Source: an uncultured Geobacteraceae bacterium
GTDB taxonomy: Bacteria > Desulfobacterota > Desulfuromonadia > Geobacterales > Pseudopelobacteraceae
Assembly: GCA_903862245.1 (NCBI GenBank)
Contig: CAIOXL010000013.1
Span: forward strand, 1-34,281
Direction of reading: 5' to 3'
DNA length: 34,281 nt
Each line of letters begins with the position of its first letter. The first letter of the stretch is position 1. The notes under the pieces are model-generated. The model searched no databases, was not told where the DNA came from, and saw only the letters and a list, made by a program, of their open reading frames with translations. The translations under genes were made by a program, and so were the position numbers. Shown here piece by piece: positions 7,765 through 13,972 of this stretch.

Positions 7765-10644
7765 ATGAACGACCACTACATGAATAACCCTCTTACTCAC
7801 CGCGACCGTCGTCTTGGAGCATCTTCTTCCGAGTGGGTCCGCTCGTTTGCGAGTGAAGACCTGAAGCCGCTTATAGTATGCCGTGGCCCGATCCGCAAGG
7901 AAGCTATGGATGTTTTTGAGGAAATGGGGATTACCCACTACGGCATTCTGCTTTCCGAAAAAGACTCCATTGTCTATGCGAATGCCCTGGCTCCTGAACT
8001 GCGTCAGCTTACGGATTCCAGCCGTGTACACCGCGTGCCTGACTACAGCGGTGCCAGCAAGGAAGAGCGCGTCGAGCGTATCGGCCAGATAATCAAGATA
8101 GCCAAAGACAACGGCTACGGTGCGGTATTCGCCGGCTACGGTTTTATGGCTGAAGATGAAGAATTTGTTGCGGCCATTGAAAACGCCGGATTGTCGTTTA
8201 TGGGGCCCAACTCCCGTACTCAGGCAGATGCGGGCAAAAAGGATGAGGCCAAACGTACGGCGCTTTCTGTCGGCGTAAGCGTCACCCCCGGCATAAACAA
8301 CGCGACCGCCCGTACACTGGTGAAAAAATACGGCACACGGGAAAAACTGCTGGCACTGGTCAAAACCCACGGCATTAAAGTGGCGGCGGCAACGCTGAAT
8401 GACAAAAAACTGTCGCTGGAAGATCTGGCCGATCAGATTTTGTATGCGTCATATGAAAAAGGGCTCGACCTCTATACCATTGATGAGCTGTCGGCACAGG
8501 TCAAGATTGAAGTAGAAGCGATGTTTAAAGAGTACCCCGCCAGCCGTATCCGCCTGAAAGCGATCGGCGGCGGTGGCGGTAAAGGGCAGCGTATTCTCGG
8601 CGCGTCACTGCTCGGGATAAAAAAACCGACGGACAAGCAGATCAAGGAAGCGTCCGCAGAAACAGCGACCCTTGTCCGGGAAGTGCTGAATGAAGTTAAA
8701 GCCAATGGTGTCGGCGACAACAAAAACGTTCTGGTTGAGCTGAATATTGAGCAGACCCGTCACAATGAAATACAGCTGATCGGCAACGGAGAGTGGTGCG
8801 TTTCTCTTGGCGGGCGCGATTGTTCGCTGCAGATGCACGAGCAGAAACTGCTGGAAATATCAGTAACCCAGGAAGCCCTGACCCTTGCCATTGAAGCAGC
8901 AAAGAAAGCCGGAAAAAAGGCGGAGCAGAAAGCACTGGAAAGCGACCTGAATGTACTCAAGCGGATGGAGGACGATTCCACCAAGTTCGGCGTTGCTGTT
9001 GGTCTTGATTCCGCATCGACCTTTGAATGTATCGTCGACCGTGACCGCTATTATTTCATGGAAGTCAACACCCGCATTCAGGTTGAGCACCGTGTTTCCG
9101 AGCTCTGCTACAGCCTCAAATTTACCAACCCGAAAGACAAGAAAGACTTCTTTGTTGTGGAGTCGCTTGTTGAAATGATGGCTCTGCTGGTGCTCCACAA
9201 AAAACGTCTGCCCAAGCCCGAGCGTATTCCCCGCTTCGCAGCTGCTGCCGAGGCCCGGCTGAACGCGACCGACAGTTCACTTTCGCCCCACGCAGGTGGC
9301 ATGATCCGCTACTGGTCGGCGCCGATTGATGGTGAGATCCGCGATGATCAGGGGATATGCATGGTGAATCCCGATACCGGCATGTTCATGCGCTACAAGG
9401 TTGCCGGAGCATACGACTCGAATATTGCGCTTCTGCTCACCAAGGGTGAAGACCGCCTGGCAAGCTACCAGCATCTGTCGAAAGTACTGGGGAAAACAAC
9501 GCTGCGCGGTTCGGATCTGGGAACCAACCTGGAGTTCCATTACGGCCTGGTCAACTGGTTCCTCGGTCAGAACGTCATGGCAAAGCCGACCACCCGGTTT
9601 GTTGTCCCCTATCTGACGCTTATGGGGCTGCTGAAACAGGAAGCAAGCAAGCTGGACACGGTTTTCGCTTTTATCCAGATGAAAAAAGCGTACGCGAAGA
9701 AAATGGCGGAACAGTTCCCTGATGATCCGAAAGTTGCCAAGGATATGGCGGCGATTCTTGATCGCAAGGGGACTCTGGTCACCCGCCCCATGGATAAGCT
9801 GCTGGAAGATCCGCACCTCCTTTCCGGCTGGTGCTCAATCAACCGGTCGAACTTCACCCTCGTTAAGGGGAAAGTGGTCTGGCACGGCAATCCGTTTATC
9901 CTGCTGGCCGATACCTATGAATACCTCAATATGTCATGGGATCCGAAAGCTCCGGCTGCAGAGGTTATCTGGGGGCATGACAACGACCTGCTGCAGAAAG
10001 GGATCCGCTTCTATCGCACCCTGTCGGAGCGGTTCAAGCTGGGTATGCACGAATTCGACAAGTTGTCCGCCCTGGTTGCCAAAGAAAAGCCGCAGGCCGG
10101 ATTCAGCGCCGGCGAGTGGGAACAGATCCGTTCGGCTCACACCGGGTTTGAAGCCGGTCTGGAACTGCTCGGCATGTTGTTTGTCGTGGCAGAAAATGTC
10201 AAATTCTGGGAATTCAAAATTGAGGAAGATCTGGAAGTCACCATTCCGGAATATCTCCATGATACGGAACTGCAGGCGCGCATGAAGAAGGTTCTGGTAC
10301 CGCCGCCGACCACCAAAGCGGATGAGATCGTTGCCATCTGCGGCGGTATGTACTACGGCCAGGAAGCACCCGGCCTGCCCACCTTTGCCCATGAAGGGAT
10401 GCATTTTGAAAAAGGCCAGGCGCTGTACATCATCGAAGTTATGAAAATGTTCAACACCGTGCGTGCGACGTTCTCCGGTACAATAGACAAAATTATCATG
10501 CAGGGGAGTGACGGTTCAATTGTTCAGAAAGGGCAGCCGCTTTTCAAAATCACTCCGGACGAAAAATTTGTCGATGTAGATCCCAAAGAGCTGGAGCTTG
10601 AAAAACGGTCGTGCACAACTGAATATCTGCATCAGGTGCTGTAA
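7765..10644 (+). CDS. Large biotin carboxylase-biotin carrier fusion of acyl-CoA carboxylase
   Basis: A 959-residue fusion that carboxylates its own biotin with ATP and bicarbonate and delivers it to the carboxyltransferase encoded upstream. The N-terminal biotin carboxylase fold shows the GPNSRTQAD segment (about residue 145), the glycine-rich ATP loop IGGGGGKGQ (about 266-274) and the catalytic EVNTRIQVEH (from residue 433). The biotin site is EVMKM, with Lys894 the biotinylated residue. The protein is unusual. About 70 extra residues lie between the first two motifs compared with E. coli AccC, roughly 40 more lie before EVNTRIQVEH, a linker region of several hundred residues precedes the carrier domain, and a 65-residue tail follows the biotin lysine where about 35 is normal. 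Two ATGs (7765 and 7780) are possible. The first has TTGGAGAT 6 nt upstream. Confidence 0.88.
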   Translation: MNDHYMNNPLTHRDRRLGASSSEWVRSFASEDLKPLIVCRGPIRKEAMDVFEEMGITHYGILLSEKDSIVYANALAPELRQLTDSSRVHRVPDYSGASKEERVERIGQIIKIAKDNGYGAVFAGYGFMAEDEEFVAAIENAGLSFMGPNSRTQADAGKKDEAKRTALSVGVSVTPGINNATARTLVKKYGTREKLLALVKTHGIKVAAATLNDKKLSLEDLADQILYASYEKGLDLYTIDELSAQVKIEVEAMFKEYPASRIRLKAIGGGGGKGQRILGASLLGIKKPTDKQIKEASAETATLVREVLNEVKANGVGDNKNVLVELNIEQTRHNEIQLIGNGEWCVSLGGRDCSLQMHEQKLLEISVTQEALTLAIEAAKKAGKKAEQKALESDLNVLKRMEDDSTKFGVAVGLDSASTFECIVDRDRYYFMEVNTRIQVEHRVSELCYSLKFTNPKDKKDFFVVESLVEMMALLVLHKKRLPKPERIPRFAAAAEARLNATDSSLSPHAGGMIRYWSAPIDGEIRDDQGICMVNPDTGMFMRYKVAGAYDSNIALLLTKGEDRLASYQHLSKVLGKTTLRGSDLGTNLEFHYGLVNWFLGQNVMAKPTTRFVVPYLTLMGLLKQEASKLDTVFAFIQMKKAYAKKMAEQFPDDPKVAKDMAAILDRKGTLVTRPMDKLLEDPHLLSGWCSINRSNFTLVKGKVVWHGNPFILLADTYEYLNMSWDPKAPAAEVIWGHDNDLLQKGIRFYRTLSERFKLGMHEFDKLSALVAKEKPQAGFSAGEWEQIRSAHTGFEAGLELLGMLFVVAENVKFWEFKIEEDLEVTIPEYLHDTELQARMKKVLVPPPTTKADEIVAICGGMYYGQEAPGLPTFAHEGMHFEKGQALYIIEVMKMFNTVRATFSGTIDKIIMQGSDGSIVQKGQPLFKITPDEKFVDVDPKELELEKRSCTTEYLHQVL

Positions 10645-10664
10645 AAAACAGAAGGAGGGTTATC

Positions 10665-11300
10665 GTGAGAAAAGGAAAATTTATTGTTCTTGAAGGTATC
10701 AGCGGTTCCGGCCAGCAGGTTAAAGGGGCAATCGTTGCGTTACATAAAGCATTGACCGAAAGTAATCATGAGGTCGTCGAGTGCGCCAATCCTGATTCGG
10801 GACGGGTAAAAGAGCTTGGCATAGAAAGCCTTCTCAACTGGTCGTTTGGTGCTGATCCCCGCGCTGATTTTCTGTTTGAATGTGCGGTCCGCTCGCAGAT
10901 CTTTACCAATGTTGTCCGCCCGTGCCTGGAGCAGAACAAAGTGGTTCTGTGCAAACAATCCAGTATTTCATCTCTTGCCAATGCTCATGTCGGCGGGACG
11001 ACGCAGAATTTTGACGTGTTGCGCCTTCTTGAGAAAATCTCCCGCGGCCATCTGTTTAATGATGAGATCTACCCGGACCTGACCATATTCATGGATGTAC
11101 CGCCGGAAGAAGCGTGTGAGCGGATAGAAGACGTCATGCAGATCCATCATGATGGTGGGATTGAGTATTACCGGCATATGCAGTCGTTTTATCTCAGGGA
11201 GATGAAACGCTGGCGCGGTGTCAGAGTAGACGCGTCATTCTCCCGAAGTCAGGAAGATATTCAGGCCGATGTACTCGCAGCAGTACAGGCCATTCTGTAA
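10665..11300 (+). CDS. Thymidylate-kinase-like protein with lost catalytic motifs
   Basis: A 211-residue protein of the nucleoside monophosphate kinase fold. The start [12 protein letters not shown] aligns with the thymidylate kinase P-loop (GxxGxGKS/T), but the lysine and the Ser/Thr are replaced by Gln17 and Gln18. The DRY motif that holds the substrate appears as KQS ([13 protein letters not shown]). The later strand [14 protein letters not shown] still matches LDVPPEVALERI of true Tmk. It is therefore probably not an active kinase. The GTG start at 10665 has a strong AAGGAGGG 5 nt upstream and lies 20 nt after the carboxylase, so it belongs to that operon, and a terminator follows it. A structural, regulatory or CoA/nucleotide-binding role is possible; the function is unknown. 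Confidence 0.75.
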
Positions 11301-11310
11301 ATTACATACG

Positions 11311-11340
11311 CCCCCTTCGTCACGAAGGGGGACTTTTTTT
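11311..11340 (+). terminator. Rho-independent terminator after the carboxylase operon
   Basis: A 9-bp GC-rich stem (CCCCCTTCG at 11311-11319 with CGAAGGGGG at 11323-11331) with a 3-nt loop is followed by ACTTTTTTT. It separates the carboxylase and pseudo-kinase genes from the mutase gene, whose start is about 100 nt further on. I see no clear promoter in that 100 nt, so termination may be partial. Confidence 0.85.
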
Positions 11341-11440
11341 GTCAGCGCACGATACCAAACCAACTTTCAGCGCAGCGCAGGGAGATACTGGTCATGGCCG
11401 GTTCTCAGCTGCCATTGGAACAGACGAAAAGGAGTCCGCT

Positions 11441-13093
11441 ATGGGCATCAACGACAGTAAGCAGAAATGGAACGAGAAGGTTGCCAAAAGCCTCACCAAA
11501 TCACCCGAGCGGATGGACCCGTTTCTGACAAGCTCCAACATAGAGATGGAACGCTGCTTCACTCCCGATTTTGAATATCCCGGATATGAGGAAACTCTTG
11601 GTCTTCCGGGTGAATACCCCTATACCCGCGGCGTACAGCCGACCATGTATCGCGGCCGCTTCTGGACCATGCGTCAGTATGCCGGGTTCGGTACCGCCAA
11701 GGAGTCCAACGAGCGCTACAAATATCTGCTTTCAGCCGGACAGACCGGGCTTTCCATCGCCTTTGACCTGCCGACCCAGATGGGGTATGACTCCGACGCC
11801 GGCATGAGCCTCGGCGAAGTCGGCAAGGTCGGCGTGGCCATTGATTCCCTGGCGGATATGGAAATCCTCTTCGACGGAATACCTCTCGACAAGGTATCCA
11901 CCTCCATGACCATCAACTCTACCGCTGCCATCCTGCTCTGCATGTATATCGCCGTGGCAGAAAAACAGGGGGTTTCCGCCGACAAAATTTCCGGTACGAT
12001 TCAGAACGACATCCTCAAGGAGTACATGGCCAGAGGCACCTACATCTATCCGCCCAAAGAGTCCATGCGGATCATCACCGACATCTTCGCCTACTGTAAA
12101 GACAACGTGCCCAAGTGGAACACCATCTCCATCTCCGGCTACCATATCCGCGAAGCCGGTTCCAGCGCGGTGCAGGAAGTAGCCTTCACCCTGGCCGACG
12201 GCATCGCCTACGTTGATGCCGCCATCAAGGTCGGCATGGATGTTGATGAGTTTGCCCCGCGCCTGGCGTTTTTCTTCAATGCCCACAACAACCTGTTTGA
12301 AGAGGTCGCCAAGTTCCGCGCCGCCCGCCGCATCTGGGCAAAAATCATGAAGGAACGCTTCGGCGCCAAAGACCCCAAATCCCAGATGCTCCGCTTCCAT
12401 ACCCAGACCGCCGGTTGTACCCTGACCGCCCAGCAGCCGGACAACAACATCATGCGCGTCACCATACAGGCACTCTCCGCAGTGCTTGGCGGCACCCAGT
12501 CGCTGCACACCAACTCCCGCGACGAAGCGCTGGCTCTGCCGACGGAGGATTCGGTCCGTATCGCCCTCCGCACCCAGCAGGTCATCGCCTATGAGTCGGG
12601 CGCTGCCGACAGCATCGACCCGCTGGCCGGATCATTTCTGGTGGAGTCTCTGACCGATCAGATTGAAAAAGCGGCATTGGAGTACATCGACAAGATCGAC
12701 AAGCTGGGGGGGGCGGTTGAAGCCATCTCGCGCGGCTTCCAGCAGAAAGAGATCCAGGATTCGGCCTACGCCTATCAGAAGGCGATCGAGAAGGATCAGC
12801 TGATTATTGTCGGCGTAAACAAGTTCACCGTCAAAGAAGCTGCGCCGACCGGTCTGCTGCGGGTCAAGGAAGAGGTTGAAATCTCCCAGAAAGCATCACT
12901 GGCCGCCATGAAGGGGGGGCGTGACAACAGTGCGGTTGCCGCAGCACTGGCACAACTGGAAACAGCCGCCAAAAGCACAGACAATCTGATGCCGTACATT
13001 CTGACTGCGGTTAAAACATACGCAACACTGGGCGAAATCGCGGATGTCTTCCGTGGGGTGTTTGGTAAGCATACGGAGACGGTTGTGTTGTAA
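11441..13093 (+). CDS. Methylmalonyl-CoA mutase, catalytic (large) subunit of split type
   Basis: A 550-residue B12-dependent mutase TIM-barrel domain that interconverts succinyl-CoA and methylmalonyl-CoA. Tyr80 (in [14 protein letters not shown]) and Arg198 (in ARGTYIYPP) match Tyr89 and Arg207 of the Propionibacterium enzyme, which grip the substrate carboxylate. Isobutyryl-CoA mutase has Phe and Gln there, so methylmalonyl-CoA is the better call. The C-terminal cobalamin-binding domain of one-chain mutases is absent: the protein ends after the catalytic domain. A separate B12-binding subunit must be encoded elsewhere. I chose ATG 11441 because GGAG lies 6 nt upstream; the frame is open further upstream only from a TTG inside the terminator. 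The stop overlaps the next start (TAATG). Confidence 0.93.
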
Positions 13094-13506
13094 TGTCTGG
13101 AATAACACGGAGCAACGGAGCAACGGAGAAAAAGCTCTTTGAATCAGAGATTACCGAATTGATAATCGGTAGTGCAATGATCGTTCATAGTACGCTTGGC
13201 CCTGGCTTGCTTGAATCCGTGTATGAAACATGTCTGGAGTATGAATTGATCTCTGCCGGATTGGTGGTAGAGCGGCAGAAACAACTGCCAATTAGCTACA
13301 AAGGTATCAATCTTGATGATGGTCTCCGGATGGATATGGTCGTAAACGGGCTAGTTGTTATTGAACTTAAATGTGTTGAAAAGCTACAGCCGGTTCATGA
13401 TGCCCAGTTGTACACGTATTTGAAACTATCTGGCATACGGACTGGCTTGCTGATTAATTTTTATACGAAGCTCCTGAAAGACGGAATCAAAAGAATTGTC
13501 TGTTGA
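13093..13506 (+). CDS. GxxExxY protein, PD-(D/E)XK nuclease-like
   Basis: A 137-residue protein of the GxxExxY family (PDDEXK_3-like). The name-giving motif is GLLESVY (residues 38-44) after IVHSTLGPG. The nuclease-like core is RMDMVVNGLVVIELK, with Asp81, Glu91 and Lys93 placed as in PD-(D/E)XK enzymes, followed by the HDAQLYTYLKL helix. The biological role of the family is unsettled. The ATG overlaps the mutase stop codon and no closer Met lies before residue 29. Codon use is more AT-rich than in its neighbours. A perfect 30-nt inverted repeat brackets it: the left arm starts 7 nt after the A of the ATG and is translated as residues 3-12, and the right arm starts 3 nt after the stop. It interrupts an otherwise natural mutase-epimerase pair. 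Confidence 0.85.
   Translation: MSGITRSNGATEKKLFESEITELIIGSAMIVHSTLGPGLLESVYETCLEYELISAGLVVERQKQLPISYKGINLDDGLRMDMVVNGLVVIELKCVEKLQPVHDAQLYTYLKLSGIRTGLLINFYTKLLKDGIKRIVC
13100..13129 (+). repeat. Left arm of 30-nt perfect inverted repeat
   Basis: This arm is the exact reverse complement of 13510-13539 over 30 nt. It begins GAATAACACGG and continues with a tandem GGAGCAAC unit. It overlaps the start of the GxxExxY gene. In RNA the two arms could pair to form a stem that encloses almost the whole open reading frame. Confidence 0.95.
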
Positions 13507-13509
13507 CTC

Positions 13510-13539
13510 TCTCCGTTGCTCCGTTGCTCCGTGTTATTC
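13510..13539 (-). repeat. Right arm of 30-nt perfect inverted repeat
   Basis: This arm is the exact reverse complement of 13100-13129. It contains CTCCGTTG units in tandem and ends GTGTTATTC. It starts 3 nt after the GxxExxY stop codon and ends 22 nt before the epimerase start codon, just upstream of the epimerase ribosome binding site (AGAAGGG, about 13549-13555). Confidence 0.95.
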
Positions 13540-13561
13540 AAAAGATTCAGAAGGGTACTAA

Positions 13562-13972
13562 ATGCTCACGAAAATCAACCACATCGGCATCGCCGTAAAA
13601 TCACTGGACGAAACTGTGCCGTTTTACCGGGACAGCCTTGGTATGGCCTTAGCCGGGATCGAGGAGGTTGCCGAGCAGAAGGTGCGGGTTGCCATGCTGC
13701 GGGTCGGCGAGTCTTTGATCGAACTGCTGGAACCGACGTCAGAAGATAGTCCGGTTGCCAAATTCATCGAGAAAAACGGTGCCGGCATTCATCACATCGC
13801 CTACGAGGTTGCGGATATTGAGGCGGCGATTGCCAAGCTGTGTGCCGAAGGTGCCCGCATGATCGATGAAAAACCGCGTAACGGGGCTCACGGCACGCGC
13901 ATAGCCTTTGTTCATCCGAAGAGCAGTCACGGGGTGCTGACGGAATTATGTCAGGTGGCTCATCACCACTGA
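13562..13972 (+). CDS. mce: Methylmalonyl-CoA epimerase
   Basis: A 136-residue glyoxalase/vicinal-oxygen-chelate fold enzyme that interconverts the (R) and (S) forms of methylmalonyl-CoA, linking carboxylase and mutase. Both beta-alpha-beta-beta-beta repeats are visible. The metal ligands expected for the family are present: His in KINHIGIAV, Glu in SLIELLEP, His in GIHHIAYEV and Glu in VLTELCQ. The length is normal. ATG 13562 follows AGAAGGG by 6 nt. It would form one unit with the mutase if the GxxExxY cassette were removed. A small CACCAC/GTGGTG hairpin overlaps its stop codon without a T-run. Confidence 0.95.
   Translation: MLTKINHIGIAVKSLDETVPFYRDSLGMALAGIEEVAEQKVRVAMLRVGESLIELLEPTSEDSPVAKFIEKNGAGIHHIAYEVADIEAAIAKLCAEGARMIDEKPRNGAHGTRIAFVHPKSSHGVLTELCQVAHHH

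Follow-up and report, generated by a model that had tools for sequence, protein, structure and literature searches.

A GxxExxY nuclease-like gene within inverted arms between methylmalonyl-CoA mutase and epimerase genes, and its relation to short gene-less elements with the same arms

In this study, we describe a small cassette in an uncultured Geobacteraceae bacterium, located in a stretch of 34,281 nucleotides that was analysed as a whole and is referred to below as the window. The cassette consists of two arms at 13100-13129 and 13510-13539, which are exact 30-nt reverse complements, and of a 137-aa open reading frame at 13093-13506, the sole candidate gene between them. The upstream neighbour encodes methylmalonyl-CoA mutase (TIGR00641) and the downstream neighbour its epimerase (TIGR03081). 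The features are as follows.

11339..13093, + strand: methylmalonyl-CoA mutase, open reading frame as listed, start codon provisional
13092..13547, no strand assigned: full cassette with the outer imperfect arm extension (92% over 38 nt)
13093..13506, + strand: GxxExxY (PDDEXK_3) nuclease-like gene, 137 aa
13100..13129, + strand: left arm, 30 nt, translated; model confidence low for residues 1-6
13204..13224, + strand: GxxExxY motif, residues 38-44
13333..13419, + strand: catalytic core D81, E91-x-K93, Q105-x3-Y109; D, E, K and Q in 130/130 loci
13510..13539, - strand: right arm, exact reverse complement of the left arm
13562..13972, + strand: methylmalonyl-CoA epimerase, downstream

Both arms are composed of GGAGCAAC repeats, and their pairing can be stretched to 13092-13129/13510-13547 (38 nt, 92% match, 380 nt apart). 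The left arm is contained in the first 13 codons of the GxxExxY reading frame and the right arm begins 3 nt past its TGA; the ATG, which shares one base with the mutase stop (TAATG), lies outside the arm stem. The original prediction had claimed exact 30-nt inverted arms around a single GxxExxY gene at these coordinates, between the mutase and epimerase genes; the arms are confirmed, and the profile matches of the two neighbours bear out their identity. Further upstream of the mutase and on the same strand, the region 7765-11300 holds a 959-aa biotin-carboxylase-like reading frame with a C-terminal biotinyl-like match, as well as a dTMP-kinase-like reading frame that scores under its family cut-off.

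The encoded protein matches TIGR04256 GxxExxY (E 1.4e-43, score 148 against a cut-off of 35) and PF13366 PDDEXK_3 (E 3.4e-42, score 143.9 against a cut-off of 22); these were its sole matches in the NCBIfam and Pfam searches, with none to a Y1/HUH transposase. In the alignment of 130 loci, the window protein carries the GxxExxY motif and the D...ExK...QxxxY residues, and E41, D81, E91, K93 and Q105 are present in 130/130 loci; we take the D81, E91-x-K93, Q105-x3-Y109 core to be of the RecB/Cas4-type QxxxY kind. The predicted structure has a mean pLDDT of 90.8. Among solved structures its closest folds are Cas4 SSO0001, LHK-Exo and lambda exonuclease (4ic1, E 8.9e-4; 3syy; 1avq), at moderate similarity (TM about 0.46, a single match at E <= 0.001, and high rmsd in several of the top matches). 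PADLOC returned a weak Cas4 profile match (E 1.7e-4), a sequence search of solved structures with the window protein gave nothing relevant, and a PHROGs search gave no match. The dN/dS ratio, computable for three of six pairs, was low in these three (0.04-0.07, a rough estimate with dS at 1.1-3.1). As judged from the alignment and these rates, the predicted nuclease active site is intact and under purifying selection. Moreover, between genomes the identity of the left arm is 90-100% and that of the remainder of the gene 68-81%, which suggests a constraint at the DNA or RNA level, or homogenisation, beyond the coding role of the arm.

Of the 117 genomes searched in the order, 98 have a GxxExxY match. 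Close relatives of the window protein are rare on phages and plasmids: a single-query tblastn search (E <= 1e-5), which more distant relatives may escape, matched 0/50,697 phage records and 8/72,556 plasmid records. An annotated GxxExxY gene does appear in the genome table of the algal virus CpV-BQ1, in the part of that source available to us (PMC12085832). In the literature searched, we found no biochemistry of the GxxExxY family; most subscription papers and preprints lay outside the search, which also returned nothing on inverted-arm cassettes in the GxxExxY texts accessible to it and no match to six arm sequences used as strings. The cassette could in principle serve defence or act as a toxin-antitoxin unit, with the nuclease as effector and the repeats as control element, as the weak PADLOC Cas4 match and the position of a nuclease beside short repeats might be taken to indicate. 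However, there is no partner gene in the cassette, gene-less copies of it are numerous (see below) and the phage and plasmid counts run against such a role, to which we give hardly any credence.

The arms are not a peculiarity of this locus. From 170 GxxExxY matches, 130 distinct loci were used for the arm scan (32 duplicates, 6 partial matches and 2 that were too short were dropped); an earlier scan, blind to arms within the aligned N-terminus, was superseded. An inverted repeat score of at least 14 was reached at 82/130 loci, as against 4/130 when the left side was reversed and 2/152 for other open reading frames, and a score of at least 18 at 64 loci, as against none of the reversed-left controls and one other open reading frame. 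Such a simple inverted pair was absent at 48/130 loci. Arms were found at 50/85 loci of the window's order and at 32/45 loci in 20 other genomes, which belong to Planctomycetota, Saprospiraceae, Prolixibacteraceae, a cyanobacterium, Gamma- and Alphaproteobacteria, Bipolaricaulota, Ignavibacteria, Rhodocyclaceae and one more Desulfuromonadales. GxxExxY genes elsewhere do not, therefore, consistently lack the repeats, a finding that would have told against the original prediction; most carry them. Arm pairs belonging to the same locus scored 22.2 on average, versus 9.0 when arms were swapped between loci. At 99/130 loci tandem arm units occurred no farther than 250 nt away, and at 70 they did so on both sides; control reading frames gave 7/53 and 1/53.

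The arms are typically built of two or three units of 8-10 nt that fit CRCNNA[G/T/A], spaced mostly at 8, 9 or 10 nt; at least two such units occur in 49 of the 71 arms from loci scoring at least 16, to which the arm comparisons were limited. At most arm-bearing loci the two arms are complementary despite sequence change between loci. Over these 71 loci the similarity of arms tracks that of proteins (Mantel rho 0.37, p 0.001), and at equal protein identity arms from the same and from different genomes were about equally similar (0.27/0.27, 0.34/0.28, 0.35/0.35 and 0.49/0.49, with 30 same-genome pairs). The arms and the GxxExxY protein are thus associated over several phyla and change together. 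This means that arms and gene travel together; recognition of one by the other is not thereby implied, and joint inheritance alone would give such co-variation.

Several loci show local rearrangement. At L051 (G013:C51) the left arm, to the left of the GxxExxY gene and beside an N run, is expanded to at least seven CACGGAGA-type repeats. At L254 (G059:C3:168000-173800) three GxxExxY cassettes that are 96-97% identical lie inside 3 kb, and by eye two of them are followed by repeated fragments resembling the 3' end of a PIN-domain gene. The repeating unit there is 480 nt long, the outer flanks differ in one copy, the surroundings form a local duplication array and no target duplication was seen at the copy ends inspected. 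At L255 a larger tandem duplication has lost one right arm. Neither of these sets of near-identical cassettes, being local or tandem duplications, proves transposition.

Short relatives of the cassette that carry no gene are scattered through the genome of origin, which comprises 2.92 Mb in 204 contigs (92.65% complete). The 13-mer CGGAGCAACGGAG occurs there 33 times at 15 places and the same letters read backwards not once, so its recurrence is not due to chance. The 15 places are the window cassette and 14 short gene-less elements that have their arms in common with it. All 14 align over about 165 nt as copies of non-autonomous type with shared ends; their consensus has both arms, a conserved outer end and a palindrome, TTCACCGATACGGTGA, between the arms, and one copy is without much of the interior. 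Besides the gene of the window cassette, the genome has one GxxExxY gene on contig C132 and one on contig C72. Arms were not detectable at these two (inverted repeat scores 10 and 8), and the gene on C72 matches the profile only to position 90 of 116. In another genome (G032) the inner part of a gene-less element can be aligned to the spacer on the 3' side of one of that genome's cassettes (score 50, against a best of 35 in 200 shuffles), which suggests that the gene-less and gene-bearing forms are one family.

The mutase-epimerase region was recognised in 57 of 58 genomes, the genome of origin included, and the junction was surveyed in the best 30 of these 57, a choice that may favour gene-bearing sites. 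At 18 of the 30 junctions (including that of the window) a GxxExxY gene was present in the same orientation, and from 12 it was missing; its presence at this site in all relatives would have told against the original prediction. In six of the 12 gene-free junctions the gap is 21-28 nt long, in five it measures 68-194 nt and shows no visible arms, and in the last (L058, in G032) it holds a gene-less element whose arms are CACCACGGAGACACGGAG.../...CTCCGTGTCTCCGTGGT. Every gene-bearing junction has a left arm that can be recognised by eye; the arm sequence varies among species, and in most of them the two arms still match. Some copies at the junction, such as L037, L047 and L089, are broken by stops. 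In a tree of 130 proteins, the 23 epimerase-adjacent copies require 7 label changes as compared with 21.5 in shuffles, and at least 3 of the 7 are forced by supported branches; the forks of this tree are rough, with few columns, and the changes may be gains or losses (the three could be one gain and two losses). The strict order mutase-GxxExxY-epimerase holds for 19 of the 23. On this tree, the GxxExxY copies at the mutase-epimerase site evidently are not one clade.

In a relative, G007, both neighbours have about 90% DNA identity to the window, yet the GxxExxY protein between them has only 68%. This locus (L041, G007:C97) combines a window-type left arm with a divergent GxxExxY body. Its right arm has decayed, and the gap after the gene also holds a distinct gene-less element, whose arms are ACACAGAGGCACAGAGACACAGAG, so that two classes stand together. 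It is possible that the cassettes are passive, with arms that act as homology patches for recombination or gene conversion and a nuclease whose role is unrelated. The combination seen in G007, of a window-type left arm and another gene body, is what such exchange would produce, and the near-identical neighbouring cassettes of L254 and L255 and the likeness of the arms among the 14 gene-less copies also agree with it. However, a passive cassette would leave unexplained the frequent bracketing of GxxExxY genes, and of S23p genes by another unit, and the fact that none of the 19 genomes of the order without GxxExxY has a high copy number of the motifs (both described below). We consider this explanation unlikely.

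Six of the gene-less elements were sought in eight relatives, and all six could be aligned in G007, where two are kept and four are missing. Three of the four missing elements left their outer end and part of one arm, with breakpoints at or within the arms; these sites look like deletions rather than an uninserted state, and since they are remnants they give no insertion boundaries. The breakpoints fit cutting at the arms and simple deletion of a palindrome equally well. Neither a target-site duplication nor a clean pair of empty and filled sites was found for the six elements or the L254 copies. In addition, a third class of gene-less element, CTCACTAAGCTCACAAAGTGCACCAAG, is represented at L175 (G002:C240), downstream of what by eye is an amidase-like gene; at this site the genome of origin and G007 have a CGGAGCAAC element instead, and no element was seen within about 330 nt at L176, L177, L178, L180, L183 and L191.

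At the level of the order, CGGAGCAACGGAG and a second arm motif, CGCAAAGNCGCAAAG, were counted over 117 genomes, with CGCAAAGNCGCAAAG reaching 115 copies per genome; among the places listed, many motifs stand in inverted pairs about 100 nt apart. Of the 98 genomes with GxxExxY, 37 had ten or more copies of the two motifs together, and of the 19 without it none had (Fisher 3e-4); the motif counts include the arms of the GxxExxY genes themselves. With one expanded genus removed, which is the only way in which phylogeny was handled here, the figures were 22/79 versus 0/19 (p 0.004), and at a threshold of 20 copies they were 25/98 versus 0/19 (p 0.007). The presence of S23p, scored positive at E < 1e-15 (49/77 genomes, with weak above-cut-off matches in 3 more), did not predict motif abundance (15/49 versus 10/28). 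One genome, G043, argues against a strict matching of motif and gene: it has 23 CGGAGCAAC motifs, yet its single GxxExxY gene has arms of another class. Taken together, the recurrent arms and gene-less copies suggest that a family of small mobile DNA elements has been overlooked.

S23p (PF05635) genes are a second family with arms of this construction. Inverted arms were found at 17/24 S23p loci of the order as against 0/24 controls (6 of 30 loci were dropped for want of a recognisable reading frame), and the arm unit differs from that of GxxExxY, being for example GTGACTGG or GGGGCTA. By nearest neighbour, the arm alone assigned the correct gene family to 71/71 GxxExxY arms and 13/17 S23p arms; in 2,000 label shuffles the number of correct S23p assignments had a mean of 3.2 and a maximum of 11. 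The S23p-type motif occurs in 18/117 genomes, frequently in plain tandem arrays, and has little value as a marker, since several genomes contain its reversed control too. One genome (G087) has 48 S23p-type heptamer motifs and no S23p match, and two others (G079 and G055) have such motifs with only weak, partial S23p matches.

S23p is also the product of the small reading frame in intervening sequences (IVS) of 23S rRNA. In the available part of one account, the Coxiella element is 428 nt long, with a 28-bp terminal stem, one small open reading frame and excision by RNase III; the S23p product has 14.2 kDa, and mobility was proposed in papers of 1990 and 1993 cited there (PMC4990558). By analogy, the arms of the present cassette could act in the transcript, forming a stem of about 30 bp cut by RNase III, with the protein as passenger or helper. 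The nearness in size and anatomy to the Coxiella element, as far as that account describes it, the similarly built arms of the S23p genes and the full 30-bp stem made by the folded cassette all speak for action in RNA. Both neighbours are co-oriented with the GxxExxY gene at 71 of 116 loci (orientation was scored at 121/130, of which 116 have both neighbours), although RNA- and DNA-level models cannot be told apart by orientation. However, the window cassette sits between protein genes, its start codon is outside the stem, and no rRNA or other family reached the Rfam gathering score at the 8 loci searched. Excision from RNA, moreover, would explain neither the dispersal of numerous gene-less copies over unrelated sites nor the conserved active site, and we find this explanation decidedly unlikely.

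Motifs like those of the arms have been described before. The accessible text of the 2009 genome paper on Geobacter metallireducens describes paired tandem octamers, in classes 1-3, as predicted binding sites of a global regulator: class 1 is GTTGCTYN x4 with 24 pairs and class 2 is TCTCCGTS[Y] x3 with 21 paired sites on opposite strands, attributed to IHF/HU or an unknown regulator (PMC2700814). So far as given there, the class 1 and class 2 octamers equal cassette arm units, and class 3 (MTYCTGA) by eye resembles some S23p arms, as at L237; the words GxxExxY, PDDEXK and S23 are absent from the main text of that paper. This identity of motifs would fit octamer pairs that bind a nucleoid or global regulator of the IHF/HU kind, the GxxExxY gene being adjacent by chance or itself the regulator. 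Sites of one host regulator would not be expected to change from cassette to cassette with the adjacent gene, as the arms do, or to differ in presence and absence among relatives, and the accessible text names no identified regulator. We regard a regulatory origin as very improbable.

In our preferred reading, short elements with inverted arms form a family whose gene-bearing member is the cassette, and we infer that the cassette spreads in a nuclease-driven, homing-like manner; we put the probability of this at roughly 0.58. The GxxExxY nuclease, related to Cas4 and lambda exonuclease, would recognise its own arms, either as a duplex or as a folded-out hairpin, and would cut or trim at them. 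Repair could then copy or exchange cassettes into arm-bearing sites, as in homing, and the gene-less elements would be empty or non-autonomous copies moved in trans. The original prediction of a minimal element without transposase gains from the bare and gene-less junctions, the arms at 82/130 loci and the dispersed gene-less copies; it holds for the form of the element, whereas movement by the nuclease itself and a cut of the RNA duplex by RNase III stay hypothetical. A single window could not have revealed the protein-linked variation of the arms, the many gene-less relatives or the fact that the genes at the junction in relatives are not one lineage.

It is tempting to go further and to see here an undescribed class of self-spreading bacterial DNA elements, in which a Cas4-like nuclease homes or transposes into its own arms, gene-less pairs spread in trans, arms and protein have changed together many times, and S23p with the 23S IVS is a parallel lineage; we rate this somewhat short of an even chance. 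If true, the S23p parallel would also explain the origin of the 23S intervening sequences. A nuclease acting on the arms would mean that short DNA can spread in chromosomes without a transposase. A common gene family without known function gains a testable role, and the paired tandem-octamer sites of 2009, and perhaps the mobility of the 23S IVS, would receive one common explanation.

Among known systems, the 23S rRNA IVS is close in anatomy: at about 430 nt, with a terminal inverted stem of about 28 bp and one small reading frame in the account available to us, it is much like the window cassette. Unlike it, the window cassette encodes a PDDEXK nuclease, has a different arm unit, lies between protein genes and has multi-copy gene-less relatives. 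23S IVSs without an open reading frame do exist. REP/REPIN sequences are repeats of a short, palindromic and non-autonomous kind that flank a RAYT nuclease gene and are abundant where this gene is present, and the RAYTs (TnpA-REP) are HUH/Y1 enzymes acting on REP hairpins. The abundance of the arm motifs likewise goes with the presence of GxxExxY, but here the protein is of the PDDEXK type and the arms are tandem units of 8-10 nt. The protein itself resembles the Cas4, lambda-exonuclease and RecB-type PDDEXK nucleases in its nearest solved folds and in its D, ExK and QxxxY residues. Cas4, however, has the four conserved cysteines of an Fe-S cluster, and the invariant or nearly invariant columns of 27 aligned GxxExxY sequences include no cysteine; the 137-aa protein also differs from it in having the GxxExxY motif, and there are no cas genes among the identified neighbours in the window. 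Finally, as in homing endonuclease genes, a nuclease gene lies within what may be its own recognition site and empty sites are found elsewhere; we know of no homing system, though, that combines an inverted two-arm site with many gene-less copies and a nuclease of the GxxExxY family.
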